NCBI RefSeq assembly: GCF_045679555.1
Contig: NC_092100.1
Location: forward strand, 34,039,106-34,103,105
From: Salvelinus alpinus
Taxonomy: Eukaryota; Chordata; Actinopteri; Salmoniformes; Salmonidae
Reading direction: 5' to 3'
DNA length: 64,000 nucleotides
The notes under the pieces are model-generated. The model was not told the DNA's origin. It saw only the letters and a list, made by a program, of their open reading frames with translations, and did no database searches. Shown here piece by piece: positions 40,472 through 64,000 of the stretch (positions within the stretch are counted from its first letter, which is position 1; each line of letters opens with the position of its first letter). Position numbers and translations under genes: made by a program.

Positions 40472-40700
40472 TGCGACCAGTGCCTTATTGTTTCAAACAG
40501 AAGATAAAATGTCAAATTTGCAGCCAAGCCGAAGCTAAAGTAAGGCAACTGCATAGAGATAGATAGAGGACTCATCTTTGTATCTATGCTATTTTAGGGT
40601 ATATGACAGCATATGTAGGACAATTGAGGCAATCTCAATTTTGACGAAGAACATTTTCTTCTTCACGATTGGCTGACCCCTCCTGGTGACCCACCCTCCT
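40472..40700 (-). promoter_or_regulatory. Probable pex11b promoter region with CCAAT box
   Basis: On the minus strand a CCAAT box (CAGCCAATCG; plus-strand ATTGG at 40668-40672) lies about 200 bp upstream of the pex11b ATG, and a TGACG-type site is in the same region (GACGAAG, near 40,643). No TATA box is evident. Everything from 40,543 onward is copied again at 54,703. Confidence 0.4.
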
Positions 40701-42581: not shown

Positions 42582-42975
42582 CTATAAAAAGTAATTATAC
42601 TTATAATCTTCATACTTTTCATCATAATCATCATCTTCCTCTTCATCCTGCTCATCTGTGGTCGTCTGTAGATAGAACATGTTTATCAGTTATGCAGTGT
42701 GTGTGAGAGATCCTTTATCATGTGATATTGACTGTACATTTGAGTGAGAATGATACAACTGATCACTTTACAAAATATCAAATTTAAAACTAAACAGTAT
42801 TTTGTAGCAATACAATGTAATACAGTGTAAGTAGTTATGTGTTGCTGGTATATGTTGCACTGTTCCTAAAATAGAAGTTGTCATTGATGCAAATCAAAAA
42901 ACATAAAGCTTACCATAATGGCGTTCAGCAGGGGACTGCAGGACTGAGCAGAGCGAGCAGTGGGTGGATTTTATA
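42582..42975 (-). CDS. Putative short TATA-driven gene, acidic Tyr-rich peptide (unit 1)
   Basis: I do not recognise this. On the minus strand a TATAAAA box (42,975-42,969) lies 53 bp upstream of an ATG (42,916-42,914) that is directly followed by a good donor GTAAGC. A good acceptor CTATCTACAG leads into 42,665-42,582, which reads in frame for 27 residues to TAG. That sequence is TTTDEQDEEEDDDYDEKYED and a short Tyr-rich tail. An IRF-like GAAGTGAAACT lies 41 bp upstream of TATA. The copy in unit 2 differs by one silent base in this exon. No signal peptide or domain is seen. It could be a chance arrangement or the 5' end of a longer gene. Confidence 0.25.
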
Positions 42976-43014
42976 CTGCAGGGTAGCAACAAAACCTGAG
43001 TCTCCACCTCCCCT

Positions 43015-43025
43015 GTGAAGTGAAA
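43015..43025 (+). promoter_or_regulatory. IRF/ISRE-like site upstream of the TATA box (unit 1)
   Basis: GTGAAGTGAAACT on the plus strand fits the interferon regulatory factor core AANNGAAA and nearly fits an ISRE. It lies about 41 bp upstream of the minus-strand TATA box at 42,975. The same site is present in unit 2 near 57,165. This is a short motif that also arises by chance. Confidence 0.3.
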
Positions 43026-43117
43026 CTCAGACCCACTTTTCTGGAAAACAAAACACATGGGAAAGAAGAAAGGGGTGTGTCTCAGTGAAGTGCGACTGAG
43101 CCCAGTGCATACTAAAT

Positions 43118-43223
<106 letters not shown>

Positions 43224-43789
43224 TTGTCTTTAAAAAGTTACACTGTACATTATCTGATGATTAATATTAAGTTATTATCAAATATTGTGTAATTGTACTT
43301 TGCATTCCTTTGTAATCATTTATTTCCCCTGGACATATTTGAAAAGTCACACCAGTGGGGTGCATGAGCCTCGAGTCTCATGATGAGACCTTCTAAAACT
43401 ACAGATGTTACTAAATGTAAACTAGGCTTTTGTCACTCTTGACTATCCAGCTGGCACCCACCCACTAGTGCACCTTATATCTGCTAATGGCTAGTGACCT
43501 TGTGCCCATATTGAGCAAATGACAGTTCTCACAGTTATATGTATGTTATTGTACTGTTGTGTCTCTGTTGTTCTCCTGTCTGTAACATCATTGGCACTAA
43601 ACTCCTAAACTAAAACGAAACTTTTAAACTCCTATCAAAACTAAACCTACTATAACAATTCATATAAACCATTCTTATGTTTGAATTGAACTAATACTAG
43701 TAGGGCCGATGAGGGGAAGACTCATTTGGTCAACCTAACAATACATCAAATTCAAACATACTATATTTTGGTGAAAGGATACAATTAAG

Positions 43790-43985
43790 CAATAAGGTAC
43801 GAGGAGGGATGGTAAATTGTCAATTTAGCACAATCCCACAAGGTGCCTTATTGCTATCATACACTTCTTACCAATGTAATTAGAACAGTAAATAGTCATT
43901 TTTTGTCATACCCATGGTATAAGGTCTGATATACCACAGCTTTCAGCCAATCAGCATTCAAGACTCGAACCACTCGGTTTATAAT
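43790..43985. repeat. MITE-related repeat (unit 1)
   Basis: Contains GCAATAAGGTACGAGGAGGG, CAAGGTGCCTTATTGCTATC, CATACCCATGGTATAAGGTC and CCAATCAGCATTCAAGACTC, the same phrases in inverted order as the MITE at 38,086. It is copied at 58,064-58,256. Confidence 0.65.
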
Positions 43986-44399
43986 ATGGAATAAACAACA
44001 CATAGAAACAACAGACACTGGACAAAACATGTTAAAGTTGCATGTGTTTACAGTTTTTATTTTCACAGTTTCATTGTTTTTTTACAGTAAATGTTGCGTA
44101 CAGCCTTTTTAGATGAATCTATTATGGGATTGTGTTTATCAGCAGGCCCCTCCCTCAAGCCCACCTAACCAAGCACGCAGACCACCAGAAGCCAAAGGGA
44201 AAAAGGGAAGTGGAAAGTAGTTTTGGCTTTTGTGGTTTGCTTCTGTAGTCTGAGTTTCGGTTAGTTGTTTCGAGGTCACTGCATTTCTGCAGCACTGGCT
44301 CTGCACACGTCACCCCCTGCTGGCCCGGTATGGGAACACGACGCATCGGCCTTGTACCTGCGGTAGGCAGCACCACTGTTGCGTTACTCCCTAGTGAAG

Positions 44400-45469
44400 G
44401 CCACACCCGATGTGTAGTGTTCTCATGTCGGGACGGTCGCGGGGGAGGCGCGACCCGCCCTTAGTCTAGCCCAGGATTTCTTCTCCTTGTCCTCCTCCTC
44501 CTCCTCACTGTGGGAAGAGAGATTGTGTTCAGTACTACAATTCAGAAACCTTCACCACAGCAAAACCTTCACATTTGCTAATAAACAAAGTAATAGTACT
44601 TTATCACTGGTGATGCAAGGGAGTGGCAGAGAAAACAGCAGCAGTAGAGGTCTTGATACGTATCATTGAAACGTGTCCCAATACAGACTTATTGACTTAT
44701 TGAGACAACGGTTCTGAGTAGTTGTGAGAAATTGCTTGATTTACAGCAATAAAAAGGAAGTCTGTACTTGTCTCCTTTTTTTACAGATACATTATCTAGG
44801 ACCTGACATCTCTGAACAGTAATATATTGTTTTACAGAGATACTTCAAACAGAGATACTTACATGATTCATAGCAAGCAGACAGAATGGGACTCCATGGG
44901 TGACCTGTTAAAGGGTTAATTAAGGTCACCAGCCCTGAAACACAAGGAATGACAGACTTAGATGTGACGCAGTCAGGAATTACAAAACATGGTCACTTCC
45001 CTTTGATCAGACTATTTTTCTGATTCTGAATTCAATGTATTACATGGTTTATCAATAATTCAAAAGCTATTCATTGAATTATGATTCATATGTTCTCAAT
45101 AAATCTGCTACTCTCTGACTAAACAACAACAACAACAGGCTGTTGTCATATGATCATGACTGTACATCACATTAAACTTCTACTTGTACTGCTCTAATTC
45201 ATAATACGGGAAATGTACTTTAAAAGTTTTTTAAATGTTTTTAAAAAACATTCCTGTTTGTCATATCAACTTTCCTTTAAAAAGTGTAAAGCAATAATTA
45301 TACTGAAATGAATGTAAACTGAACTAAATATTAATCAGGTCAAATAACACAGGTCAATGTTTACAGTAAGTTCTTTATCATTATAGAGATAAAACTCACC
45401 CCTGAATCCTTCAGCAGACATATCCGCAGGATAGAAAGGACAGATGAATCGCTGCATCTTCCTTATAAA
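44400..45469 (-). other. Putative minus-strand gene cassette, unrecognised (unit 1)
   Basis: Three blocks look exon-like on the minus strand. The first has a TTTATAAG TATA-like box (45,469-45,462) and a leader ending at donor GTGAGT (exon end 45,400). The second is 44,934-44,863, between TTTCAG and GTAAGT. The third begins at 44,507 after CCCACAG and reads EEEEDKEKKSW in one frame. I cannot make one frame run through all three: the phases do not agree, so it is either non-coding, broken or mis-parsed. A related older copy lies at 50,160-50,905 and a recent copy at 58,680-59,740. Confidence 0.3.
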
Positions 45470-45606
45470 CCCTGAGAACCCTCTTCTCCTCCTCCTACTC
45501 TCCTGCTCCTCCTCTCCCTCCTCCTCCTCTTACTCTCCCTCATCCTATACCCTGAACTGTTTAGCCCTGTCTGACAGCACCTCAGACAAGCAGCCTGCAC
45601 TGTGTG

Positions 45607-46075
45607 TGTCGCGCCCTGACCTTAGATATCTCTGTTTTTCTATATATTTTGGTTAGGTCAGGGTGAGACTAGGGTGGGTACGCTAGTTTTGTATGTCTAG
45701 GTTTTTTGTATGTCTAGGGTTTTTGTGTATGTCTAGGGTTTTTGTATGTCTAGGGGTGTCGTATGTCTAGGGGTTTTGTATGTCTATGTTGGCCTGATAT
45801 GGTTCCCAATCAGAGACAGCTGTTTATCGTTGTCTCTGATTGGGGATCATATTTAGGTAGCCATTTTTCCTCGTTTGTGTTGTGGGATCTTGTCTGCTTT
45901 GAGTTGCCTGAGTGCACACCTGTAGCGGCACGGTTCGTTCGTTCGTTCGTTCGTTCGTTCGTTCGTTCGTTCGTTCGGTTGTTTGTTGTTTTGTTAGGTG
46001 AGTTTCAGTTGATTAAAATTATGTGGAACTCTACTCACACTGCACCTTGGTCTCATCATTACGACGATCGTGACA
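45607..46075. mobile_element. Solo-LTR-like repeat (unit 1)
   Basis: It starts TGTCGCGCCCTGACCTTAGA and ends ACGATCGTGACA. The unit 2 copy starts TGTCACG, so the ends are TGTCACG...CGTGACA, the TG...CA form typical of LTRs. It contains GGTTCCCAATCAGAGACAGC and an A-rich segment near the end. A short tandem of GTATGTCTAGGG(T) units lies inside. No internal retroelement genes flank it. A non-autonomous DNA transposon is the alternative. Confidence 0.55.
45934..45977. repeat. (TTCG)n microsatellite (unit 1)
   Basis: About eleven TTCG units inside the LTR-like repeat. In unit 2 (60,586-60,598) only about three remain. Confidence 0.95.
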
Positions 46076-46410
46076 GTGTGTTTGTTTGTGTATGTGTGTG
46101 TGTGTGTGTCTGTGTGTGCGTGTGTGTGTCAGCAAGCTTTACTTGTCTGTTTTGTTTACATCAACATCCATCTTTTAGTTTCATTTTTTGCACTGCCTAT
46201 TTCTCAGATAGGGTGTGCCTTCTTTGGTTACTAGGTGCTGAACAAACACAACAAAACTCAAGGTTACTTTCGTAACCCCGGTTAACTGATAAGTGAGATG
46301 TATCACTTATTGGGTCCAGTGGCGAAGTGGCGAATGAGGTGAGCCCCTCCCTCTTTATAACCCGGAAATGTGTATTTAAAAGAGAACCAAACTATGACGT
46401 GCGTACATGT

Positions 46411-47960
46411 ACAGTGCATTTGGAAAGTATTCAGACCCCTTGACTTTTTCCACATTTTGTTACGTTACGGCGTTAATCTAAAATGGATTCAATAATTTTT
46501 TCCTCAATCTACACACAATACCCCATAATGACAAAGCAAAATGTATTTTTTTACATTAGTATTCAGACTCTTTACTCAGTACTTTGTTGAAGCACCTTTG
46601 GCAGCGATTACAGCCTCGAGTCTTCTTGAGTATGACGATACAAGCTTGGCACACCTGTATGTGGGGAGTTTCTCCCATTTTTCTCTGCAGATCCTCTCAA
46701 GCTCTGTCAGGTTGGATAGGGAAAGTCACTGCACAGCTATTTTCAGGTCTCTCCAAAGATGTTCGATCGGGTTCAAGTCCAGGTTATGACTGGGCCACTC
46801 AAGGACATTCAGAGACTTGTCCCGAAGCTAGTCCTGCGTTGTCTTGGCTGTGTGCTTAGGGTCGTTGTCCTGTTGGAAGGTGAACCTTCGCCCCAGTCTG
46901 AGGTCCTGAGCGCTCTGGAGCAGGTTTTCATCAAGGATCTCTCTGTACTTTGCTCTGTTCATCTTTCCCTCGATCCTGACTGGTCTCACAGTCCATGCCG
47001 CTGAAAAACATCCCTACAGCATGATGCTGCTACCACCATGCTTCACCGTAGGGATGGTGCCAGGTTTCCTCCATACTTAACACTTCGAATTCAGGCCAAA
47101 CAGTTCAATCTTGATTTCATCAGACCAGAGAATCATGTTTCTCATGTTCTGAGAGTCTTTACCTGCCTTTGGGAAAATTCCAAGCGGGCTGTCATGACCC
47201 TTTTACTGAGTAGTGGCTTCCGTCTGGCCATTCTACCATAAAGGCCTGATTGGTGGAGTGCTGTAGAGATGGGTGTCCTTCGGGAAGGTTCTCCCATCTC
47301 CACAGAGGAACTCTGGAGCTCTGTGAGAGTGACCATCGGGTTCTTGGTCACCTCCCTGACCAAGGCCCTTCTCCCCGATTGCTCATTTTGGCCGGGCGGC
47401 CAGCTCTAGGAAGCGTCTTGGTTGTTCCAAACGTCTTCCATTTAAGAATGAACGAGGACACTGTGTTCTTGGGGACCTTCAATGCTGAAGAAATGTTTTG
47501 GTTCACTTCTCCAGATCTGTGCCTCGACACAATCGTGTCTCAGAGCTCTACGGACAATTCCTTTAACCTCATGGCTTGGTTTTTGGTCTGACATGCACTG
47601 TCAACTGTGGGACATTATATAGACAGGTGTGACTTTCCAAATCATGTCCAATCAATTGAATTTACCAATCAAGTTGTAGAAACATCTCAAGGATGATCAA
47701 TGGAAACAAGATGCACCTGAGCTAAATTTCGAGTCTGATAGCAAATGGTCTGAATACTTAATACCCAATAATGACAAATTGAAAACAGGTTTTTAGAAAT
47801 GTTTGCAAATTTACTAAATATAAAACACAAAAATACCTTATTTACATGTGTGTATATTGTTGACAAAAATATAGTTTTTTAATCCATTTTAGAATAAGGC
47901 TGTAGAGTAACAAAATGTGGAAAAAGTCAAGGGGTCTGAATACTTTCTGAATGCACTGTA
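46411..47960 (-). mobile_element. Tc1-like transposon, copy 1 (ACAGTGCATTTGGAAAG family)
   Basis: The left end ACAGTGCATTTGGAAAGTAT and right end ATACTTTCTGAATGCACTGT are inverted and flanked by TA. The transposase runs on the minus strand: SALKVPKNTVSSFILKWK (DNA-binding) near 47,490, GRPAKMSNRGE, then the catalytic part toward 46,750. Multiple frameshifts and stops make it inactive. Confidence 0.93.
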
Positions 47961-48530
47961 TGTGTGCGTGCGTGGCTGGAGAGAGGGAAATCCCATTCAA
48001 GGAAGTATGAAACCAGAGAAGGCTCTAAACTACACGCTAATCTTGGCCTACATGAAGCTAATTACAAAAAAGTACAACTAAAATAATGCAGTGAGACTGA
48101 TATGAAATTGGAAGTATGTATCAATTCAAGGATGTGTCAAGTAGATTTGATATGATTTACTTACACTACACTACTAGCTATATGTATCATTTTGCAGTAG
48201 TTCTCTGCAATGTGGAATCAATATCAGAGAGCTTATAAATACCCGAATTGCAAAACTACAGAACACATGACACAGGCAAGTTTGTTCATGTCGCATAGGT
48301 TCTTTCCATTTTTATAAAAGTTTTTAAAAACATTTAAGGAAATCATGCTTTCAGCCTTGTAGTGTATTTGGGATTGTGTTTAAATCAGCAGGCCCCCCCC
48401 CCCCACGAGCTGCCGAAACACAGACAACCAGAAGCCAACCAAAATAAAGAAAAGAATGGTTCTTCATCTGGCTGCATTCTATATAGTTACATTGCTTGTT
48501 TAAGTATTCAGGTAAGTATTAATTGTTTAA
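47961..48530. other. Spacer in unit 1, partly homologous to 44,100-44,250
   Basis: No gene is seen. The stretch TGGGATTGTGTTTAAATCAG, CAGGCCCC and ACAACCAGAAGCCAA at 48,370-48,440 resembles 44,128-44,195 and is part of the older paralogous block. Confidence 0.5.
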
Positions 48531-49924
48531 CTTCTTATGGCTGGGGGCAGTATTGAGTAGATTGGATGAATAAGGTGCCCAGAGTAAACTGCCTGCTACT
48601 CAGTCCCAGAAGCTAAGATATGCATATTATTAGTAGATTTGGATAGAAAACACTCTGAAGTTTCTAAAACTGTTTGCATGATGTCTGTGAGTATAACAAA
48701 ACTCATATGGCAGACAAAAACCTGAGAAAACATCCAACCAGGAAGTGGGAAATCTGAGGTTTGTAGGTTTGCCTATTGCACTTCCTAAGGCTTCCACTAG
48801 ATGTCAACAGTCTTTAGAACCTTGTTTCAGGCTTCTACTGTGAAGGAGGCGGGAATATGAGCTGATTGAGTCAGATGTCTGGCAGAGTGCCATGAGCTCA
48901 CTCAGGCGCGCCCCCGTGAGAGGTAGCTGCGTTCCTTCTCCTTTCTAAAGACAAAGGAATTTTCTGGTTGAAACATTATTGAAGATTTATGTTAAAAACA
49001 TCCTAAAGATTGATTCTATACATCGTTTGACATGTTTCTACGAACTATAATGGAATCTTTTGACTTTTCGTCTGGCCTGTGCGTCATCAACTTGGATTTT
49101 CGAACTAAACGCGCAAACAAAAAGGAGGTATTTGGACATAAATTATGGACGTTATCGAACAAAACAAACATTTGTTGTGGAACTGGGATTCCTGGGAGTG
49201 CATTCTGATGAAGATCATCAAAGGTAAGTGAATATTTCTAATGCTATTTCTGACTTCTGTTGACTCCACAACATGGAGGGTACCTGTATGGCTTGTTTTG
49301 GTCTCTGAGCGCTGTACTCAGATTATTGCATGGTGTGCTTTTTCCGTAAAGCTTTTTTGAAATCTGACACAGTGGTTGCATTAAGGAGAAGTTTATCTAA
49401 AGTTCCATGTAAAACACTTGTATCTTTTATCAATGTTTATTATTAGTATTTCTGTAAATTGATGTGGCTCTCTGCAAAATCACCGGATGTTTTGGAGGCA
49501 AAACATTACTGAACATAATGCGCCAATGTAAACTTAGATTGGAACTTTATCGAACAAAACATACATGTATTGTGTAACATGAAGTCCTATGAGTGTCATC
49601 TGATGAAGATCATCAAAGGTTAGTGATTAATTTGATCTCTATTTCTGCTTTTTGTGACTCCTCTCTTTGGCTGGAAAAATGGCTGTGTTTTTTTGTGACT
49701 AGGTACTGACCTAACATAATCAGATGGTGTGCCTTCGTCGTAAAGCCTTTTTGAAATCGGACACTGTGGTGGGATTAACAACAAGTTTATCTTTAAAATG
49801 GTGTAAAATACTTGTACGTTTGAGGAATTTTAATTATGAGATTTCTGTTGTTTGAATTTGGCGCCCTGCACTTTCACTGGCTGTTGTCATGTCGATCCCG
49901 TTAACGGGATCTCAGCCATAAGAA
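48531..49924. mobile_element. 1.4-kb non-autonomous element with short inverted ends
   Basis: CTTCTTATGGCTG at 48,531 and CAGCCATAAGAAG at 49,924 are perfect 13-bp inverted ends. The interior has two related modules, each containing TATCGAACAAAAC, TGATGAAGATCATCAAAGGT and TTTTTGAAATC(T/G)GACAC, offset by about 0.4 kb. No transposase is seen. It is flanked on both sides by AAGTATTCAGGTAAGTATTA then ATTGTTTAA. I recognise it as an abundant salmonid repeat. Confidence 0.75.
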
Positions 49925-50090
49925 GTATTCAGGTAAGTATTAATTGTTTAAGTATTCAGGTAAGTTATATAAGCTTTGTGCTTTGGATGAGCTTCATCTT
50001 GTCGTCCTAGGTGTCTTCGGGTGTCTAGCGCTTGGGTTCGCCAGTGCGTCAAGGTCACCTAGCTCTGCTCACCAGGCCCGACTGACCAGG

Positions 50091-50167
50091 GCCCGGTTTC
50101 CCAGAAGCGTCTTAAGGCTAAGTTAATCTTCGAACCTTAGCATCAAGATACTTTTGGGAAACCGGGC
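50091..50167. mobile_element. 77-bp hairpin MITE
   Basis: GCCCGGTTTCCCAGAAGCGT and ATACTTTTGGGAAACCGGGC are inverted ends around a short centre (AAGGCTAAGTTAATCTTCG). Confidence 0.85.
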
Positions 50168-50905
50168 ACAGGTCCTGAAGGGTCATGCTGAGGGTCAGTA
50201 CCTGCTAGTGGACAGACTCCCAACACACCCCTCAGGACATGGCCAGGGACCCAGTGATCTCCCCTTGGGAGCCTCCTCTCTTCCTCCTTGTCACCGTGGG
50301 AAAATACTTTGTTTTAGTCACAGCTAGGCAACTCTGGCCCAACAATTTAGTATGTTTAAAGGTTCATTTGAATTATATTCATCTTTATTGTCCATAAAAG
50401 GTTTATTCATCACAGGCACATTCATGTTGCGGATGTGAGGTACAATAAAAATACACAGCAAGCAGACAGAGTGGGAACTCCATGGTGACCTGACAGAGGT
50501 TCACCAGTACTGCAACACAAGGAAGGACACACATAGATGTAAGTGACGCAGGCGATACGGATACTTCCTGGTTCAGGATTGATGTTTAACAAATACTCTT
50601 ACCATGTATTATATTATTGTCAAAGTTATCTTGAACTATAGCAATTTTACTCTAAAGACAAAACAGTAGCCTTTCCGTGTAACTGTAAATGTACAACAAC
50701 ACAAATACAATATTTTGGTTTGATGACATTGAAATGCATGCAAAGTGAATGACATACAAAGCACATTAAAAAATAAAACAATGCATCACTATACGAGCTA
50801 TTAGATCTCTATGGAAAATAAACTCGCCCCTGAACCCTTTAGCCAAGGGCTCCGCAGAATAAAAAGGACAGATCAAACGTTGCATCGTCCATTTATGCCC
50901 TGAAA
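50160..50905 (-). pseudogene. Older, decayed paralogue of the unrecognised cassette
   Basis: On the minus strand 50,890-50,820 matches the first block at 45,470-45,400 (MQRLICPFYSAE against MQRFICPFYPAD in one frame). The block near 50,510-50,455 matches the second (TGACCTGACAGAGG, CCTTGTGTT context), and 50,330-50,270 weakly matches the third. The donor GTGAGT is GCGAGT here, the acceptor CACAG is CACGG, and the TATA-like box is CATAAATG. In its second block an ATG at 50,483 opens MEFPLCLLAVYFY, which looks signal-peptide-like; unit 1 has one base fewer there, which shifts the frame. Confidence 0.4.
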
Positions 50906-50993
50906 AAACCCTCCCCTTCTCCTCAACTGTTAATGCCAAGGGCCACAGGAAAGCACCTAATTTACCCTCAGCCTGCATTGTTTGTGTGTATGT

Positions 50994-51161
50994 CACAGGA
51001 GGTTGGTGGCACCTTAATTGGGGAGGATGGGCTCGTGGTAATAGCTGGCCTGGAATTTGTGGAATGGTATCAAATACATCCACACATGGTTTCCATTGAC
51101 GCCATTCCATTTGCTCTGTTCCAACCATTATTATGAGCCGTTCTCCCCTCAGCAGCCTTCT
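50994..51161. mobile_element. 168-bp hairpin MITE
   Basis: CACAGGAGGTTGGTGGCACC and the right part GGTTTCCATTGACGCCATTC, ATTATGAGCCGTTCTCCCCT, CAGCAGCCTTC are imperfect inverted arms of a common salmonid MITE. The central GGAATGGTATCAAATACAT and GCCATTCCATT also pair. Confidence 0.8.
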
Positions 51162-51594
51162 GCGGTGTGTGTGCTGACTCATGCACACGCTGAGCACAAT
51201 GGCTATTTGCCACACAACTCTTCTTTCCCTTCAGTTTTGTTTCCAGTAAAGTCTGTCTTGAGTTTAATTTCCCTGTTCCCTTTTCTCAAGAAAGGGTGTG
51301 TGTCTGGTTACTAGGTTTCTAGGCACCTGTGTCAACAAGTACAACTCTTATTTTTAGATGGCAATGAAAGACCAATACAAAACTCTTAACATAAAACTCT
51401 GTCTTTATATAACTTTCACATCAGCAATCACATCTTCATTTTACTTTTTGTTACACGTTTTATTATCGTTCTGCTTATTCCAGACCAGGTCCTAATCCCC
51501 TGGACTCAAAAGAGGAAGTGGAAGTGAAAGAGAGGCAGGCGAGGCGGCATCCTGACGAGATTAGGTCGGCGAGCAAATAGACTGCATTGCCCTC

Positions 51595-52250
51595 TTCTAT
51601 TGGCGAACGTGCAGTCACTGGAGAACAAGCTGGATGAGCTCCGTTCGAGACTATCCTGTCAACGGGACCTGAAAAACTGGAATATCCTGTCTCTCAGAGT
51701 CATGACTGATTTTTCTATGCATTGTCAGAACCAGATGGCAAGACAAAGGGAGGAAGGGTCTGTCTCTGTTAACAACAGCTGGTGCGCGTTCTCTAATGTT
51801 AAGGAGGTCTCAAGTTTTTGCTCACCTGAGTTAAAATACCTCATGACTGCAGACCATACTATTTAACAAGAGAGTCTTAATCTATATTTTTTGTAGCGGT
51901 CTATAGTATTTACCACCACAAACCAATGCTGGCACTCAATGATCTGTAGAGGAGCGTAAGCACACAAGAAAATTGACATTAAGAGGCGGCATTTCTCGTG
52001 GCCGGTGCTGGGAAATGGAAAATTCTATATCCCCTTTAATCCACACACAGAAATATATACAAGGTCCTCCCTCGCCCTCCCTCTGGCAAATCAGACCATT
52101 ACCCTATCCTCCTTCTTCCTGCTTACAAGCAAAAACTCAAACAGGAAGTACCAGTGATGCGCTCAATGTGGAACTGGTCAGATGAAGTGGATGCTAAGCT
52201 ACAGGACTGGTTCACTAGCACAGACTGGAATATGTTCCAGGATTTATCTG
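51595..52250 (+). mobile_element. LINE fragment (endonuclease-domain start, decayed)
   Basis: NVQSLENKLDELRSRLSCQR opens the fragment, followed by an SVNNSWCAFSNVKEVSSFCS-like segment. This is the N-terminal endonuclease region of CR1/L2-type ORF2. After 51,870 the frame is lost; near 52,180 a DEVDAKLQDWFTSTDWNMF segment appears, normally further downstream, so internal deletion has occurred. Confidence 0.7.
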
Positions 52251-53085
52251 ATAACATTGAGGAGTTTACCACATCAGTCACCGGTAAGGCTGTTATGGTA
52301 AGAAATGTGACTGTTCCTGGTGTAAAAACAATGTCCTATCCTGTGGCTCAAGTAAATGACATTACTAAAATGCTCCCGAATGTACTACGCCAGAACATGG
52401 ACACCGATTCTATCATAGTCCATGTGGGTTTTAATGACATTATGAAGGGCAGCTCTGAACAGTTGAAACTGGATTTCAAAGACCCATCATATCTGGCCCT
52501 GGGTCGTCTTTGAATCATAGCATTAAACGCTTTAGCAGGATTCTTTCTCTTCACAACTGGCTACGTGATTATTGCAGCTCAATGGGTGTATCTTTTGTTG
52601 ACAATTTCAATACCTTTTGGAAACAAAACACGTTTTATAAAGAGGATGTGATCCACCCAAATCATTTGGTTTCCTGGATCCTTTCACAGCATTATAAGGC
52701 TGCGTTGAGACAATGACTTATCAATGACCCAAGCTCAGCTCAGTTAATCCCTGCCATTGTGTCACTGAGTCATCATAATGCTTTAGCAAATGTACATTAT
52801 ACAAGGGGCATTGGAAGACACAATGTTCAAGTAACCTCATTTATGTCCCTCTAACTGCCCTGAATGCCTCTGCTGATCCTACAGCTATTGTATGCAGCAA
52901 ACATGTGCCTATGAACCAGATTTATGCTGTTAGCAGTGAGGTGTGCCCTAGTAGGAAATCCACTGTGTGCAGCTCATCCTGCACTAACATAAATAACATG
53001 ACAATGTCTACTTCTGCTAAGCTTCCCAGTAAAGCAATGAAAACAAGCATCCCAGAAAAGTGCTCAAAATAGCCCATGTTAACAT
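52251..53085 (+). mobile_element. LINE ORF1 fragment with SGNH-hydrolase-like segment
   Basis: Two neighbouring plus-strand frames encode DSIIVHVGFNDIMKGSSEQL, then SRILSLHNWLRDYCSSMGVS and DVIHPNHLVSWILSQHY. The His-x-Gly-x-Asn-Asp and Asp-x-Ile-His-Pro-Asn patterns fit the SGNH/GDSL-type esterase domain found in ORF1 of some vertebrate CR1/L2 LINEs. A frameshift near 52,505 separates the two halves. The fragment is cut on the right by Tc1 copy 2. Confidence 0.65.
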
Positions 53086-53250
53086 ACAGTGACGTCGGAA
53101 AGTATTCAGACCCCTTGACTTTTTCCACATTTTGTTATGTTACAGCCTTATTCTAAAATTGGTTAAATTGTTTTTTTCCCCTCATCAATCTACACAAAAT
53201 AATCCATAACGGCAAAGCAAAAACAGGTTAAGATTCTTTATTTTTGCAAA

Positions 53251-53290
<40 letters not shown>

Positions 53291-54630
53291 TTACATTTAC
53301 ATAAGTATTCAGTACTTCGTTGAAGCACCCTTGGCAGCGATTACAGCATTGCGTCTTCTTGGGTAGGACGCTACAAGCTTAGCACATCTGTATTTGGGGA
53401 GTTTCTCCCATTCTTCTCTGCAGATCTTCTCAAGCGCTGTCATGTTGGATGGGGAACGTTGCTGCACAGCTATTTTCAGGTCTCTCCAGAGATGTTCGAT
53501 CAGGTTCAAGTCCGGCTCTGGCTGGGCCACTCAAGGACATTCAGAGACTTGTCCCGAAGCCACTCCTGCGTTGTCTTGACTGTACTTTGGTTCATTGTCC
53601 TGTTGGAAGTTGAACCTTCGCCCCAGTCTGAGGTCCTGAGCGCTCTGGAGCAGGTTTTCATCAAGGATCTCTCTGTACTTTGCTCTGTTCATCTTTGCCT
53701 CGATCCTGACTAGTCAACCAGTCCATGCCGCTGAAAAACATCCCCAAGGCATGATGCTGCCACCACCATACTTCACCATAGGCATGGTGCCAGGTTTCCT
53801 CCAGACGTGGCGCTTGGCATTCAGGCCAACGTGTTCAATCTTGAGAATCTTGTTTCTCATGGTCTGATAATCTTTAGGTGCCTTTGGCAAACTCCAAGTG
53901 GGCTGTCATGTGCCTTTTACTGAGGAGTGGCTTCCGTCTGGCCACTCTTCCATAAAGGCCTGATTGGTGTAGTGCTGCATAGATGGTTGTCCTATTGGAA
54001 TGTTATTCCATCTCCACAGAGGAACTCTAGAGCTCTGTCAGTGACCATCGGGTTCTTGGTCACCTCCCTGACCAAGGCCCTTCTCCCCCGATTGCTGTTT
54101 GGTTGGGCGGTCGGGCGGTCAGTTTTGGTGGTTTCAAACTTCTTCCATTTAAGAATGATGGAGGCGACTGTGTTCTTGGGGACCTTCAATGCTGCAGACA
54201 TTTTTTGGTACCCTTCCTCAGATCTGTTCCTCGACACAATCCTGTCTCGGAACTCTACGGACAATTCCTTCGACCTCATGGCTTGGTTTTTGCTCTGACA
54301 TGCACTGTCAACTGTGGAACCTTATATAGACAGGTGTGTGCCTTTCCAAATCATGTCCAATCAATTGAATTTACCAAAGGTGGACTCCAATCCAGATGTA
54401 GAAACATCAAGGATGATCAATGGAAACAGGATGCACCTGAGCTCAAGGTTTATCTGTTATATATTTTTAATACACTTGCAAAATTTTCTAAAAACCTGTT
54501 TTCGCTTTATTATGATGTATTGTGTGTAAATTGCTAAATAATATCTATATTTAATCTATTTTAGAATAAGGCTGTAACGTAACAATGTAGAAAAAGTCAA
54601 GGGGTCTGAATACATTCCGAAGGCACTGTA
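53086..54630 (-). mobile_element. Tc1-like transposon, copy 2
   Basis: The left end TACAGTGACGTCGGAAAGTA and right end GAATACATTCCGAAGGCACT are inverted. The minus-strand transposase pieces include MRSKELSVEFRDRIVSRNRS near 54,275 and [20 protein letters not shown] near 53,520. An A/T-rich run lies at 53,250. It is diverged from copies 1 and 3 over its left two thirds, but the right end matches copy 3 over nearly 300 bp. Confidence 0.93.
53250..53292. repeat. Poly(A)/(TA)n tract
   Basis: A run of about 20 A followed by a TA run inside Tc1 copy 2; absent from copies 1 and 3. Confidence 0.95.
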
Positions 54631-54702
54631 TGCAGCAGGTGAGTTTCAAGTTCGGGGAAAGTCATTTTCAACCAAAAAAATGCACCTTTATAAAGGAGGG
54701 TC
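54631..54702. other. Right flank of the duplicated block, up to the unit junction
   Basis: TGCAGCAGGTGAGTTTCAAG to GGAGGGTC is the same as 62,499-62,570. In the second location it continues into ACGTGACC; here it jumps to AGGCAACTGC, the left start of the next unit. Only one base (A) could be shared at the join. Confidence 0.9.
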
Positions 54703-54703
54703 A

Positions 54704-56741
54704 GGCAACTGCATAGAGATAGATAGAGGACTCATCTTTGTATCTATGCTATTTTAGGGTATATGACAGCATATGTAGGACAATTGAGGCAATCTCAATT
54801 TTGACGAAGAACATTTTCTTCTTCACGATTGGCTGACCCCTCCTGGTGACCCACCCTCCTGATGACCCAGTTGGACATCACTCCAAAATGGTCACAAACG
54901 CCCTCAATGGCGTTTTGGCCTCTATCATTCTCTATGGGCAACAGCTCTCATATCATAGCTAGCGAATTTACGTTCCAGTACGGAGGGTTTTGCAGACGGA
55001 CAAGTGGGTTTGTCAAACGGCCCTTTCGAATACTTTTAACAATAATAATTTTATTATTTCCTTGCATGGAGTAAGATTCACTGATCTTACGCGAGTAATA
55101 TGTAACAAAGCAAGTAAATTAGGCATAGTAATATCATGGTTCAACAGGATTCAGCAATAATGATAGGCATGGAAGTACTTACACATTAATCTCACAGGAT
55201 TTACATTAATTTGAATACAAAGTACAGACAACATTAGAATGAAAGAAAACATTTATTTCAAAACAAGTAAAACACAAGAAGGGACATTCAACATGTGGCT
55301 CCAAGTGAAGGGAGATGTTAACTTGGTTTTGATAGTTAGTTGTATCTACATATACATTATATATGAACATATGTAATCACCCTAAATTATGTTCATATTA
55401 CATTATGAAAATATAGGCAATCATAACCATTTTATCCTGAACAACTACCCTCAAATGTTCCCTTTAGCCACAAAACCAAGCGACAGAAATCCTTATAGAT
55501 ATAGTTTAACATAGTCCCTATGTTAAAAGTAGAACAGTGTAACAGTATAGCTTCCATCCCTCTCTTTGCCCCTACATGGGCTCGAATCAGGGACCCTCTG
55601 CACACATAGACAACAGTCACCCTTGAAGCATCGTTACACATCGCTCCACAAAAGCCGAGCAAGGTGAACAACTACTTCAAGGTCTCAGAGCAAGTGACGT
55701 TACGATTGAAACGCTATTAGCGCGCACCCCGCTTACTAGCTAGCCATTTCACATCGGTTACAACAGCACAAGTAAACATGGTTTGATAATAAACATACTA
55801 TTTTGTTATGTTATTTATACCCTGTAACTGTATGCTTTCACATTGTGAGTGCCTTCTCACTTGAAGTATAGAAGGCCTTTTTCCTCATTTATCAGTTAGA
55901 TGCATAGCTTACATTATTGAAAAGAGCTACCACTATAATATCCTCATATAGGAAATTATGCAATCCTGACCATTTTGGGCAAGCAGCTACCCTGAAATTT
56001 TCTGAGACACTTTGCTTCACATAGCGTTAGTTGAACATACAGTATGTCCATATGTTTAAGGTACAACAGAAATGATGTATTATGTTAATCATGTTATGAT
56101 TAGCATAATAAACTGCCTTCATATTGTGAGAGTCTTCTCGCTTCAAGGTTTCAAGGCTTAAGTCCTCCTTCCTCATCTGGTAGGCGCCGCTTCTCCCTTT
56201 AAGGCCTGGTAGACATCTTGTCTTATCTTCAGTACCTCAGGTGGAACTCTGCCCTCCTGTCTCCTAGTGGCTCTCTTTTGTGCCTTTCAGCGGTTTGTGA
56301 TGCTTTTTTGCATGACACACAGCAGAAGATGGGAGTTTAGACTTCTGGCTTCATTTCAGGAGAGATCCTGGGTTTGGAGGTTAGATGCATCTACATATCT
56401 TACATTATTGAAAAGATATCTACAACCATAATATCCTCATATAGTAAGTTATGCAATCCTAACCATTAGCCAAAGAAGCAACCCTGATATGTTCTGAGCC
56501 ACTCAGAAATTCCTTCAAGTACCTTCACATAGCATTGTGATAGTGATTGTCTGTTTTGTTCAAGTTGAAGTCCTTCCTCATCTGGAAGGAGTTCCACCTC
56601 CTAGTTTTAAGGCCTGTTTCAGTGCCTCAGATGGACTTCTGCCCACCGGTTCCACCCCCCACACATGGTCTACAGTATTCGTGCAGTATGCAGGGCCAAA
56701 GAAACCCAGTGTGCTACCCTTGGGAGTAGACTGATTGTACA
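54704..56741. other. Duplicated sequence without recognised gene (unit 2)
   Basis: Copy of 40,544-42,581, including the CCAAT-containing upstream region of pex11b (ATTGG at 54,828-54,832), but with no pex11b exon beside it. Confidence 0.6.
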
Positions 56742-57126
56742 CTATAAAAAGTAATTATACTTATAATCTTCATACTTTTCGTCATAATCATCATCTTCCT
56801 CTTCATCCTGCTCATCTGTGGTCGTCTGTAGATAGAACATGTTTATCAGTTATGCAGTGTGTGTGAGAGATCCTTTATCATGTGATATTGACTGTACATT
56901 TGAGTGAGAATGATACAACTGATCACTTTACAAAATATCAAATTTTAAACGAAACAGTATTTTGTAGCAATACAATGTAATACAGTGTAAGTAGTTATGT
57001 GTTGCTGGTATATGTTGCACTGTTCCTAAAATAGAAGTTGTCATTGATGCAAATCAAAAAACATAAAGCTTACCATAATGGCGTTCAGCAGGGGACTACA
57101 GGACTGAGCAGTGGGTGGATTTTATA
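56742..57126 (-). CDS. Putative short TATA-driven gene, acidic Tyr-rich peptide (unit 2)
   Basis: This is the duplicate of the cassette at 42,582-42,975. The TATAAAA box is at 57,126-57,120, the ATG at 57,076-57,074 with the same GTAAGC donor, and the exon at 56,825-56,742. The exon has one change, GAT to GAC, which keeps Asp. The leader is 9 bp shorter (one of two GAGCAG/GAGCGAGCAG repeats lost). The function is unknown. Confidence 0.25.
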
Positions 57127-57269
57127 CTGCAGGGTAGCAACAAAACCTGAGTCTCCACCTCCCCTGTGAAGTGAAACTCAGACCCACTTTTCTGGAAAAC
57201 AAAACACATGGGAAAGAAGAAAGGGGTGTGTCTCAGTGAAGTGCGACTGAGCCCAGTGCATACTAAATG

Positions 57270-57518
<249 letters not shown>

Positions 57519-58063
57519 TATTGTCTTTAAAAAGTTACACTGTACATTATCTGATGATTAATATTAAGTTATTATCAAATATTGTGTAATTGTACTTTGC
57601 ATTCCTTTGTAATCATTTATTTCCCCTGGACATATTTGAAAAGTCACACCAGTGGGGTGCATGAGCCTCGAGTCTCATGATGAGACCTTCTAAAACTACA
57701 GATGTTACTAAATGTAAACTAGGCTTTTGTCACTCTTGACTATCCAGCTGGCACCCACCCACTAGTGCACCTTATATCTGCTAATGGCTAGTGACCTTGT
57801 GCCCATATTGAGCAAATGACAGTTCTCACAGTTATATGTATGTTATTGTACTGTTGTGTCTCTGTTGTTCTCCTGTCTGTAACATCATTGGCACTAAAAC
57901 TCCTATCAAAACTAAACCTACTATAACAATTCATATAAACCATTCTTATGTTTGAATTGAACTAATACTAGTAGGGCCGATGAGGGGAAGACTCATTTGG
58001 TCAACCTAACAATACATCGAATTCAAACATACTATATTTTGGTGAAAGGATACAATTAAGCAA

Positions 58064-58256
58064 TAAGGCACGAGGAGGGGTGGTAAATTGTCAATTTAGC
58101 ACAATCCCACAAGGTGCCTTATTGCTATCATACACTTCTTACCAATGTAATTAGAACAGTAAATAGTCATTTTTTGTCATACCCATGGTATAAGGTCTGA
58201 TATACCACAGCTTTCAGCCAATCAGCATTCAAGACTCGAACCACTCGGTTTATAAT
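58064..58256. repeat. MITE-related repeat (unit 2)
   Basis: Duplicate of the repeat at 43,790 with a few substitutions. Confidence 0.65.
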
Positions 58257-58679
58257 ATGAAATAAACAACACATAGAAACAACAGACACTGGACAAAACA
58301 TGTTAAAGTTGCATGTGTTTACAGTTTTTATTTTCACAGTTTCATTGTTTTTTTACAGTAAATGTTGCGTACAGCCTTTTTAGATGAATCTATTATGGGA
58401 TTGTGTTTATCAGCAGGCCCCTCCCTCAAGCCCACCTAACCAAGCACGCAGACCACCAGAAGCCAAAGGGAAAAAGGGAAGTGGAAAGTAGTTTTGGCTT
58501 TTGTGGTTTGCTTCTGTAGTCTGAGTTTCGGTTAGTTGTTTCGAGGTCACTGCATTTCTGCAGCACTGGCTCTGCACACGTCACCCCCTGCTGGCCCGGT
58601 ATGGGAACACGACGCATCGGCCTTGTACCTGCGGTAGGCAGCACCACTGTTGCGTTACTCCCTAGTGAAGGCCACACCC

Positions 58680-59740
58680 GATGTGTAGTGTTCTCATGTC
58701 GGGACGGTCGCGGGGGAGGCGCGACCCGCCCTTAGTCTAGCCCAGGATTTCTTCTCCTTGTCCTCCTCCTCCTCCTCACTGTGGGAAGAGAGATTGTGTT
58801 CAGTACTACAATTCAGAAACCACCACAGCAAAACCTTCACATTTGCTAATAAACCTTTATCAAATAGTACTTTATCACTGGTGATGCAAGGGAGTGGCAG
58901 AGAAAACAGCAGCAGTAGAGGTCTTGATACGTATCATTGAAACGTGTCCCAATACAGACTTATTGACTTATTGAGACAACGGTTCTGAGTAGTTGTGAGA
59001 AATTGCTTGATTTACAGCAATAAAAAGGAAGTCTGTACTTGTCTCCTTTTTTTACAGATACATTATCTAGGACCTGACATCTCTGAACAGTAATATATTG
59101 TTTTACAGAGATACTTCAAACAGAGATACTTACATGATTCATAGCAAGCAGACAGAATGGGACTCCATGGGTGACCTGTTAAAGGGTTAATTAAGGTCAC
59201 CAGCCCTGAAACACAAGGAATGACAGACTTAGATGTGACGCAGTCAGGAATTACAAAACATGGTCACTTCCCTTTGATCAGACTATTTTTCTGATTCTGA
59301 ATTCAATGTATTACATGGTTTATCAATAATTCAAAAGCTATTCATTGAATTATGATTCATATGTTCTCAATAAATCTGCTACTCTCTGACTAAACAACAA
59401 CAACAACAGGTTGTTGTCATATGATCATGACTGTACATCACATTAAACTTCTACTTGTACTGCTCTAATTCATAATACGGGAAATGTACTTTAAAAGTTT
59501 TTTAAATGTTTTTAAAAAACATTCCTGTTTGTCATATCAACTTTACTTTAAAAAGTGTAAAGCAATAATTATACTGAAATGAATGTAAACTGAACTAAAT
59601 ATTCATCAGGTCAAATAACACAGGTCAATGTATACAGTAAGTTCTTTATCATTATAGAGATAAAACTCACCCCTGAATCCTTCAGCAGACATATCCGCAG
59701 GATAGAAAGGACAGATGAATCGCTGCATCTTCCTTATAAA
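58680..59740 (-). other. Putative minus-strand gene cassette, unrecognised (unit 2)
   Basis: Recent duplicate of the cassette at 44,400-45,469: TATA-like box at 59,740-59,733, middle block 59,205-59,134, acidic block starting at 58,778. A few small indels lie between blocks. Confidence 0.3.
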
Positions 59741-59803
59741 CCCTGAGAACCCTCTTCTCCTCCTCCTCCTCTCCCTCCTCTTACTCTCCCTCATCCTATA
59801 CCC

Positions 59804-60197
59804 GGTCTCCCGGGTGGCGCAGTGGTCTAGGGCACTGCATCGCAGTGCTAGCTGCGCCACCAGAGTCTCTGGGTTCGCGCCCAGGCTCTGTCGCAGCCGG
59901 CCGCAACCGGGAGATCCGTGGGGCGACGCACAATTGGCATAGCGTCGTCCGGGTTAGGGAGGGTTTGGCCGGTAGGTAGGGAGGGTTTGGCCGGTAGGGA
60001 TATCCTTGTCTCAGTATGTAAAAATGTAATAAAAATGTATGCACTCTACTGTAAGTCGCTCTGGATAAGAGCGTCTGCTCTTGGCCGGTAGGGATATCCT
60101 TGTCTCAGTATGTAAAAATGTAATAAAATGTATGCACTCTACTGTAAGTCGCTCTGGATAAGAGCGTCTGCTAAATGACTAAAAATGTAAATGTAAA
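59804..60197 (+). mobile_element. SINE inserted only in unit 2, with 7-bp target duplication
   Basis: TATACCC lies on both sides (59,797-59,803 and 60,198-60,204); unit 1 has a single TATACCC at the matching site. The element starts GGTCTCCCGGGTGGCGCAGT, has the B-box-like GGTTCGCGCCC, the CACAATTGGCATAGCGTCGT body and the GTAAGTCGCTCTGGATAAGA tail. The tail region is duplicated in tandem with a 94-bp period (59,987 and 60,081). Confidence 0.95.
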
Positions 60198-60258
60198 TAT
60201 ACCCTGAACTGTTTAGCCCTGTCTGACAGCACCTCAGACAAGCAGCCTGCACTGTGTG

Positions 60259-60699
60259 TGTCACGCCCTGACCTTAGATATCTCTGTTTTTCTATATATT
60301 TTGGTTAGGTCAGGGTGAGACTAGGGTGGGTACGCTAGTTTTGTATGTCTAGGGTTTTTGTATGTCTAGGATTTTTGTGTATGTCTAGGGTTTTTGTATG
60401 TCTAGGGGTGTCGTATGTCTAGGGGTTTTGTATGTCTATGTTGGCCTGATATGGTTCCCAATCAGAGACAGCTGTTTATCGTTGTCTCTGATTGGGGATC
60501 ATATTTAGGTAGCCATTTTTCCTCGTTTGTGTTGTGGGATCTTGTCTACTTTGAGTTGCCTTAGTGCACACCTGTAGCGGCACGGTTCGTTCGTTCGGTT
60601 GTTTGTTTGTTGTTTTGTTAGGTGAGTTTCAGTTGATTAAAATTATGTGGAACTCTACTCACACTGCACCTTGGTCTCATCATTACGACGATCGTGACA
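60259..60699. mobile_element. Solo-LTR-like repeat (unit 2)
   Basis: Duplicate of the repeat at 45,607, shorter because the internal TTCG run is contracted. Confidence 0.55.
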
Positions 60700-61032
60700 G
60701 TGTGTTTGTTTGTGTATGTGTGGTGTGTGTGTGTGTCTGTGTGTGCGTGTGTGTGTCAGCAAGCTTTACTTCTTTCTTTGTCTGTTTTGTTTACATCAAC
60801 ATCCATCTTTTAGTTTCATTTTTTGCACTGCCTATTTCTCAGATAGGGTGTGCCTTCTTTGGTTACTAGGTGCTGAACAAACACAACAAAACTCAAGGTT
60901 ACTTTCGTAACCCCGGTTAACTGATAAGTGAGATGTATCACTTATTGGGTCCAGTGGCGAAGTGGCGAATGACTCTTTATAACCCGGAAATGTGTATTTA
61001 AAAGAGAACCAAACTATGACGTGCGTACATGT

Positions 61033-62498
61033 ACAGTGCATTTGGAAAGTATTCAGACCCCTTGACTTTTTCCACATTTTGTTACGTTACGGCGTTAATC
61101 TAAAATGGATTCAATAATTTTTTCCTCAATCTACACACAATACCCCATAATGACAAAGCAAAATGTATTTTTTTACATTAGTATTCAGACTCTTTACTCA
61201 GTACTTTGTTGAAGCACCTTTGGCAGCGATTACAGCCTCGAGTCTTCTTGAGTATGACGATACAAGCTTGGCACACCTGTATGTGGGGAGTTTCTCCCAT
61301 TCTTCTCTGCAGATCCTCTCAAGCTCTGTCAGGTTGGATAGGGAAAGTCACTGCACAGCTATTTTCAGGTCTCTCCAAAGATGTTCGATCGGGTTCAAGT
61401 CCAGGTTATGACTGGGCCACTCAAGGACATTCAGAGACTTGTCCCGAAGCCACTCCAGCGTTGTCTTGGCTGTGTGCTTAGGGTCGTTGTCCTGTTGGAA
61501 GGTGAACCTTCGCCCCAGTCTGAGGTCCTGAGCGCTCTGGAGCAGGTTTTCGTCAAGGATCTCTCTGTACTTTGCTCTGTTCATCTTTCCCTCGATCCTG
61601 ACTGGTCTCACAGTCCATGCCGCTGAAAAACATCCCTACAGCATGATGCTGCCACCACCATGCTTCACCGTAGGGATGGTGCCATGTTTCCTCCATACTT
61701 AACACTTCGCATTCAGGCCAAAGTGTTCAATCTTGGTTTCATCAGACCAGAGAATCATGTTTCTCATGTTCTTAGAGTCTTTACCTGCCTTTGGGAAAAT
61801 TCCAAGCGGGCTGTCATGACCCTTTTACTGAGGAGTGGCTTCCGTGGTAGATTCCTTCTGGAAGGTTCTCCCATCTCCACAGAGGAACTCTGGAGCTCTG
61901 TGAGAGTGACCATCGGGTTCTTGGTCACCTCCCTGACCAAGGCCCTTCTCCCCGATTGCTCATTTTGGCCGGGCGGCCAGCTCTAGGAAGCGTCTTGGTT
62001 GTTCCAAACGTCTTCCATTTAAGAATGATGGAGGACACTGTGTTCTTGGGTACCTTCAATGCTGAAGAAATGTTTTGGTTCACTTCTCCAGATCTGTGCC
62101 TCGACACAATCGTGTCTCAGAGCTCTACGGACAATTCCTTTAACCTCATGGCTTGGTTTTTGGTCTGACATGCACTGTCAACTGTGGGACATTATTTAGA
62201 CAGGTGTGACTTTCCAAATCATGTCCAATCAATTGAATTTACCAAAGGTGGACTCCAATCCAGATGTAGAAACATCAAGGATGATCAATGGAAACAGGAT
62301 GCACCTGAGCTCAAGGTTTATCTGTTATATATTTTTAATACACTTGCAAAATTTTCTAAAAACCTGTTTTCGCTTTATTATGATGTATTGTGTGTAAATT
62401 GCTAAATAATATCTATATTTAATCTATTTTAGAATAAGGCTGTAACGTAACAATGTAGAAAAAGTCAAGGGGTCTGAATACATTCCGAAGGCACTGTA
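61033..62498 (-). mobile_element. Tc1-like transposon, copy 3 (hybrid of copies 1 and 2)
   Basis: From 61,033 to about 62,210 it matches copy 1, apart from a 45-bp net loss near 61,845 and scattered changes. From about 62,245 to 62,498 it matches copy 2, not copy 1. The switch falls in a 34-bp identical tract (62,211-62,244). Minus-strand transposase pieces include [18 protein letters not shown] and [17 protein letters not shown] (second Asp and Glu kept), but stops and frameshifts remain. Confidence 0.95.
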
Positions 62499-62606
62499 TG
62501 CAGCAGGTGAGTTTCAAGTTCGGGGAAAGTCATTTTCAACCAAAAAAATGCACCTTTATAAAGGAGGGTCACGTGACCTACAAACGCAATGGTCAAAAGA
62601 CTCTTA

Positions 62607-64000
62607 TACAGTTATAGTCGGAAGTTTACATACACCTTAGCCAAATACATTTAAACTCAGTTTTTCACAATTCCTGACATTTAATCCTAGTAAAAATTCC
62701 CTGTCTTAGGTCAGTTAGGATCACCACTTTATTTTAAGAATGTGAAACGTCAGAATAATAGTAGAGAGAATGATTAATTTCAGCTTTTACTTCTTTCACC
62801 ACATTCCCAGTGGGTCAGAAGTTTACATACACTCAAATAGTATTTGGTAGCATTGCCTTTAAATTGTTTAACTTGGGTCAAACGTTTTGGGTAGCCTTCC
62901 ACAAGCTTCCCACAGTAAATTGGGTGAATTTTGGCCCATTCCTCCTGACAGAGCTGGTGTAACTGAGTCAGGTTTTTAGGCCTCCTTGCTCGCACACGCT
63001 TTTTCAGTTCTACCCACAAATTTTCTATAGGATTAAGGTCAGGGCTTTGTGATGCCCACTCCAACACCTTGACTTTCTTGTCCTTAAGCCATTATGCCAC
63101 AACTTTGGAAGTACCCTTGGGTTCATTGTCCATTTGGAAGACCCATTTGCGACCAAGCTTTAAGTTCCTGACTGATGTCTTGAGATGTTGCTTCGATATA
63201 TCCACATAATTTTCCATCCTCATGATGCCATCTATTTTGTGAAGTGCACCAGTCCCTCCTGCAGCAAAGCACCTCCACAACATGATGCTGCCACCCCTGT
63301 GCTTCACGGTTGGGATGGTGTTCTTCGGTTTGCAAGTCTCCCCCTTTTTCCTCCAAACATAACGATGGTCATTATGGCCAAACAGTTCTATTTTTGTTTC
63401 ATCAGACCAGAGGACATTTCTCCAAAAAGTACAATCTTTGTCCCCATATGCAGTTGCAAACCGTAGTTTGGCTTTTTTTAATGGCGGTTTTGGAGTAGTG
63501 GATTCTTCCTTTCTGAGCGGCCTTTCAGGATATGTCAATATAGGACTCGTTTTACTGTGGATATAGACACTGTTGTACCTGTTTTCTCCAGCATCTTCAC
63601 AAGGTCCGTTGCTGTTGTTCTGTGATTGATTTGCACTTTTCGCACCAAAGTACATTCATCTCTAGGAGACAGAACGTGTCTTCTTCCTGAGCGGTATGAC
63701 GGCTGCGTGGTCCCTTGGTGTTTATACTTGCACACTATTGTTTGTACAGATGAACGTGGTACCTTCAGCGTTTGGAAATTGCTCCCAAGAATGAACCAGA
63801 CTTGTGGAGGTCTTGGCTGATTTCTTTTGATTTTCCATAATGTCAAGCAAAGAGGCACTGAGTTTGAAGGTAGGCCTTGAAATACATCCACAGGTACACC
63901 TCCAATTGACTCAAATGATGTCAATTAGCCTATCAGAAGCTTCAATAAGAGAGGATGAGGCGGTGGTTACACATGCTGTTGGTGCAGCAATTCAAGGAGT
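62607..64000 (-). mobile_element. Sleeping-Beauty-like Tc1 transposon, broken, runs off the window
   Basis: The left inverted repeat CAGTTATAGTCGGAAGTTTA, then CATACACCTTAG, is of the salmonid Tc1 type related to Sleeping Beauty. The transposase lies on the minus strand. The DNA-binding part near 63,780-63,550 contains VPRSSVQTIVCKYKHQGTTQ and LSPRDECTLVRKVQINHRTT. The catalytic part has NVLWSDETKIELFGHNDHRY (first Asp), VFQMDNEPKG (second Asp kept, the following Asp-Pro-Lys-His altered) and [11 protein letters not shown] (Glu). A stop replaces a Lys codon just after SKVVA at 63,092, and at least one frameshift separates the halves. The right end is outside the window. Confidence 0.95.

Follow-up and report, generated by a model that had tools for sequence, protein, structure and literature searches.

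A hybrid Tc1 element in a tandem duplication of Salvelinus alpinus and its probable origin by recombination between two Tc1 copies

Alu-Alu deletions arise by ectopic recombination, through non-allelic homologous recombination (NAHR) or single-strand annealing, and leave a chimeric element. Here we describe a structure of this kind that involves three decayed copies of a Tc1-like DNA transposon in a stretch of 64,000 nucleotides of the Salvelinus alpinus genome, referred to as the window (positions 34,039,106-34,103,105 of contig NC_092100.1 in assembly GCF_045679555.1, which comprises 2.37 Gb in 928 contigs). The window is free of N, and its first letter is position 1 in the coordinates below. 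Two of the copies lie in the longer unit of a tandem duplication and the third, a hybrid of the other two, in the shorter unit, from which the segment between the two parents is absent. A survey of structural variants in vertebrates attributed homology-flanked variants to likely ectopic recombination between copies of transposable elements (TEs), and it lists class II TEs among the mediators (PMC13320814).

The hybrid Tc1 copy and its two parents

A recombination scan bore out the proposal, made in a preliminary description of this DNA, that Tc1 copy 3 (61,033-62,498) follows copy 1 (46,411-47,960) in its first part and copy 2 (53,086-54,630) in its last part, and it placed one breakpoint. Copy 3 is copy-1-like up to 62,209 and copy-2-like from 62,246. 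With each run of indels counted as one event, the alignment holds 241 variable events; 13 of these are changes found in copy 3 alone, and the other 228 are informative. The informative events are divided 149 copy-1-like to 11 copy-2-like on the left of the breakpoint and 0 to 68 on the right. The single breakpoint improved the log-likelihood by 107, against 10.9 at most in 2,000 shuffles; this split is far beyond chance. The exchange interval is a tract of exactly 36 bp common to all three copies, located at 62,210-62,245 in copy 3, at 47,633-47,668 in copy 1, where it forms the left edge of the deletable interval, and at 54,342-54,377 in copy 2, where it forms the right edge. The offset of 6,709 bp between the two parental tracts, given previously, was recovered in the alignment. 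The tract itself had been recognised earlier but put at 34 bp, one base short at each end, and the alignment displays it as 32 columns, since the neighbouring difference is an indel within a repeated CCAA. The change described as diagnostic consists of a 13-bp indel, with the 13 bp absent from copy 1, and of substitutions beside it. From the start of the tract to the end of the short unit (62,210-62,571, 362 bp), the sequence does not differ at any position from copy 2 and its flank. Copies 1 and 2 themselves differ by 12.8% on the left of the tract (153/1,197) and nominally by 25.6% on the right, partly because a segment of about 87 bp in the tail of copy 1 is apparently inverted.

The 11 copy-2-like events on the left were compared with the states of other Tc1 copies, using up to 24 per site and omitting place L028 as well as matches shorter than 200 columns. 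In 10 cases copy 3 agrees with the majority of the other copies, and it is copy 1 that deviates. At the copy-3-private sites outside the deletion join (see below), the deviating copy is copy 3 in 6 of 6. The simplest reading of the exceptions is one exchange together with separate decay of the copies.

A uniform tree for both halves of the element had been set beforehand as a refuting test; the two halves instead gave conflicting trees. On the left, copies 1 and 3 form a group with a support of 1.000, and on the right copies 2 and 3 are identical. The trees retained 24 of 30 rows for the left half and 21 of 30 for the right half, after removal of rows with less than 60% coverage and of opposite-strand matches; the first 140 columns of the left half were also omitted. 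The other Tc1 copies were L001-L027, the first 27 in listing order of 143 places that match a motif of the copy-2/3 type. As this motif lies to the right of the breakpoint, the right-half tree is biased and the set of Tc1 copies is non-random; L005 and L006 are moreover near-identical.

Searches of the assembly addressed the source of each half. The tail of copy 2 was matched at 100% by copies 2 and 3 only (best 40 of 5,021 candidates), followed by a match of 82% over nearly the whole length; partial alignments showed 86% identity across about 185 bases and 95% across 37. The nearest relative of the first half of copy 1 was copy 3, with 95% identity and a 45-bp gap (best 40 of 18,345 candidates); after it came matches of 88% along the entire half and of 90% along about 1.08 kb, and short pieces reached 97%. 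The tail of copy 1 was found once at 100%, the next full-length matches being at 77-78% and partial ones reaching 97% over about 92 bases (best 40 candidates). On the basis of the best 40 candidates per search, the parents of the hybrid are copies 1 and 2 rather than another copy in the genome.

All three copies occupy the coordinates reported earlier, lie on the minus strand and have TA at both ends; the strand of copy 1 was assigned by the homology of its transposase with that of the other two. Within the long unit, copies 1 and 2 are in direct orientation and flank the deleted interval. Each copy has terminal inverted repeats, its ends being identical in 69-71 of 81-82 aligned columns. An attempt to assign the halves to each other by the pairing of these repeats was rejected as non-discriminating. 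Copies 2 and 3 were scanned for domains, and an HTH_SB remnant (PF25787, E 1e-21) was found in a copy-2 frame and a DDE_3 remnant (PF13358, E 6.2e-9) in a copy-3 frame. A full-length Tc1 transposase has about 340 amino acids. The longest minus-strand stop-to-stop frames of at least 90 amino acids comprise 109 in copy 2 and 95 in copy 3, and copy 1 has none, which fits the earlier view of these transposons as dead. The domain remnants, TA flanks and terminal inverted repeats are features of Tc1/mariner elements, here presumably of the salmonid type, whereas the decay of the copies and the apparently inverted segment in the tail of copy 1 set them apart. Exact matches to Tc1 patterns of 31 and 24 bases were absent from viral and bacterial collections.

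The segment of about 87 bp in the copy 1 tail (47,761-47,847) looks inverted relative to copy 2. It matches in reversed orientation in 26 of 40 scored genomic copies (counted from the listing) and in copy 2, and it resembles the left-end repeat; some of these copies also align it unreversed within longer, weaker matches. Judged from these alignments, the segment is likely to be an inversion.

The tandem units and the missing segment

The long form with two Tc1 copies (unit 1, 40,540-54,703) has a repeat length of 14,160 bp, and the related short form with the single hybrid (unit 2, 54,700-62,571; 7,868 bp) follows it directly. The duplication junction (54,700-54,703) is nearly blunt, with about 1 bp of microhomology, no inserted bases and no N. 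When 2.4 kb of unit flank (40,543-42,940) were searched against the assembly, 2 of the 44 listed matches were full-length, both of them inside the window, and a third full-length copy was absent among these 44 matches (best 40 of 2,575 candidates). The curated unique flanks of the two units differ by 25 substitutions in 5,483 positions (0.46%), a count that omits simple repeats, indel borders and the region of a short interspersed nuclear element (SINE); the Fisher tests given below use curated counts only. The uncurated unit alignment has 44 substitutions in 5,792 positions, of which 13 at 45,497-45,542 and 4 at 44,587-44,591 were attributed to faulty alignment next to the SINE and a small indel.

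The middle segment (47,961-53,085) is present in unit 1 and absent from unit 2. Over its full length of 5.1 kb it occurs in one place of the assembly, and an interspersed repeat inside it, about 1.4 kb long (approximately 48,527-49,933), accounts for 45 of the 49 other matches listed (best 40 of 20,916 candidates). The preliminary description had balanced the unit lengths as 14,160 - 6,709 + 462 - 45 = 7,868. The arithmetic is correct, but the sum is no independent evidence, because matching flanks at the two ends force the lengths to add up. The net gain of 462 bp before the Tc1 was confirmed, with 541 bp gained and 79 bp lost in the alignment, and consists mostly of a 394-bp SINE and a longer (AC)n array. 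The net loss of 45 bp inside the Tc1 is specific to copy 3 (61,846-61,860, edges approximate) and has unmatched bases at its join. A templated insertion at this place was rejected, as none of the stretches of 8-12 bases that start before 61,860 matches either strand of copy 1 at 47,150-47,350; an inverted match of 7 bases, noticed by eye, is too short to count. Both the SINE and the 45-bp loss are confined to unit 2. Since parts of both Tc1s are found in each unit, both insertions predate the split of the units.

The SINE lies on the plus strand at 59,804-60,197, between target-site duplications of 7 bp (TATACCC, 59,797-59,803 and 60,198-60,204), and unit 1 has the empty site. It contains a 93-bp internal repeat and ends in a tail of the UnaL2 type (RF00436, 70.1 bits, 60,131-60,184), the sole Rfam match listed for 40,000-64,000. 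The element has the 3' tail derived from a long interspersed nuclear element (LINE) and the target-site duplication that characterise a tRNA-type SINE with an L2-type tail. The (AC)n array numbers 51 repeats in unit 1 (43,120-43,221) and 121 in unit 2 (57,276-57,517).

Coding pieces of ELL and PEX11 are also present in the window, together with remnants of Tc1-like transposase. Such remnants, with weak DDE_3 and HTH_SB matches, lie at 62,780-63,924 near the right edge of the tandem array and gave no match to Tc1 copies 1-3 in the self-comparison. Another near-identical direct duplication that carries Tc1 was seen on contig C1 at 98.60-98.63 Mb (L005, L006 and L030-L032). Its blocks of about 99.8-99.9% identity stand at offsets of 14,810, 13,018 and 13,806 bp, which implies internal length differences.

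Proposed recombination and alternative histories

The hybrid very probably arose by recombination between copies 1 and 2 within the 36-bp tract, which deleted 6,709 bp and left copy 3. Removal of about 6.7 kb by an exchange between two Tc1s had been put forward in the preliminary description and is supported by the in-register switch, by the presence of both parents in unit 1 and by the lack of a better source among the best 40 candidates per search. The homologous substrates would have been two old, broken Tc1s in the same orientation and 6.7 kb apart. Exchange or annealing within the tract, in one lineage of the locus, would have fused the left part of copy 1 with the right part of copy 2, at the loss of 6,709 bp. 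The region of 14.2 kb, now twice in tandem, would thereby have come to exist in one long and one deleted form. Because the join is in register, falling on corresponding alignment positions of the two Tc1s, it points to homology-directed repair, by unequal crossover or by single-strand annealing after a break between them; a join of this sort would hardly be expected from end joining at random positions. Annealing over a short identity after a break seems likelier than meiotic crossover because the parents are so diverged.

Several observations weigh against this reading. The divergence of copies 1 and 2 on the left of the tract is high for ordinary homologous recombination, and the tract, although one of the longer runs that they share, is not the longest, as runs of 86, 45, 41 and 39 columns exist. 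At site 61,724 copies 2 and 3 have T, against A in 20 of 20 scored bases of other copies and one gap. Inside the Tc1 (46,411-47,632 compared with 61,033-62,209), copies 1 and 3 differ at 18 of 1,167 positions without the deletion join (1.54%) and at 24 of 1,179 with it. The former value is three times that of the flanks (18/1,167 vs 25/5,483, p = 1.6e-4). The tail shared with copy 2, in turn, has 0 differences in 362 positions, with p = 0.19 at the flank rate and p = 0.011 against the left half of the Tc1. A simple history leaves this contrast between Tc1 and flank divergence unexplained. The polarity of the event, a deletion rather than an insertion, is inferred. Three pairs of sites at which copy 1 is odd lie at most 2 bases apart (p ~5e-4 under random placement). 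These departures from the simple history could stem from mutations of several bases at once, from conversion by other Tc1 copies or from faulty polishing of repeats.

An order of events that is compatible with Tc1-Tc1 recombination, and possible though not favoured, is that the deletion allele came first and that a long and a short allele were then placed in tandem by an unequal, end-joined exchange. The microhomology of about 1 bp at the junction indicates an end-joined event, which could join two haplotypes, and the units differ in substitutions (0.46%), the SINE and microsatellite length, as alleles can. This order requires, however, that the deletion was segregating before the duplication, and nothing favours it over deletion after duplication.

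The same differences are of the allelic kind that would be expected if the units were two alleles laid end to end by the assembler, a heterotype false duplication with no tandem duplication behind it. The two full-length flank copies in the assembly would also suit such an artefact, as would the rates of false duplication reported for older assemblies, of which 4 to 16% of the sequence was falsely duplicated, mainly via divergent haplotypes, in the assemblies examined in PMC9516828. We consider an allelic false duplication unlikely; even then the hybrid would be a real deletion allele, unless the assembler jumped between Tc1 copies.

It is improbable that a single replication-based event produced the structure, with the polymerase recopying the unit and switching template from copy 1 to copy 2. 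The switch inside a short identical tract and the nearly blunt duplication junction agree with such an event, but two independent ordinary events account for the same structure and the junction is without inserted bases. The broader proposition that duplication and deletion form one rearrangement, with a template switch on diverged Tc1 copies, is more doubtful again; if true, old DNA transposons would direct not only crossing over but also the switching of templates during replication.

The reverse polarity, in which the short form is ancestral and unit 1 was made when a circle bearing the middle segment and a Tc1 entered the resident Tc1 by homologous recombination, yields the same sequences, and the pairing of terminal repeats within elements does not discriminate against it. 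It is nevertheless very improbable, as it requires a circle with a matching Tc1 and is less parsimonious, and the best 40 of 20,916 candidates included the complete middle segment at a single place. Gene conversion in which copy 2 overwrote patches of copy 3, in place of a single exchange, is barely credible and was rejected: it would suit the 11 copy-2-like events among the 160 on the left, but the states of other Tc1 copies do not support it at 10 of these 11 sites (61,724 remains), the counts of 11 copy-1-like-odd and 6 copy-3-odd sites show no significant difference (p = 0.33), and conversion of the element only would leave the missing middle segment unexplained.

Comparison with known TE-TE recombination

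Neither this event nor Tc1-Tc1 hybrid deletions in salmonids were found in the open-licence literature searched. The available excerpt of PMC7959816 treats Tc1 insertions and solo long terminal repeats (LTRs), not Tc1-Tc1 recombination. Compared with the variants of the vertebrate survey (PMC13320814), the 6,709 bp lost here are just above the size range, and the case lies within one assembly rather than between haplotypes. If recombination between copies 1 and 2 is indeed the origin of copy 3, Tc1 copies about 13% apart can still serve as deletion substrates by way of a short identical tract.

The locus shares with deletions of the Alu-Alu type the direct orientation of the two copies, the loss of the interval together with one element, and a chimera with an in-register breakpoint in an identical tract. 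Unlike in those deletions, the parents are Tc1 DNA transposons with the high divergence described above, and, owing to the duplication of the region, the undeleted form survives alongside the deleted one. The product of a transposon-mediated deletion is found here next to its two parents, which allows the breakpoint to be read exactly. The event is a well-resolved single case of the documented class of ectopic recombination between TEs and an ordinary member of it; it adds one more example and leaves the general view of that class unchanged.
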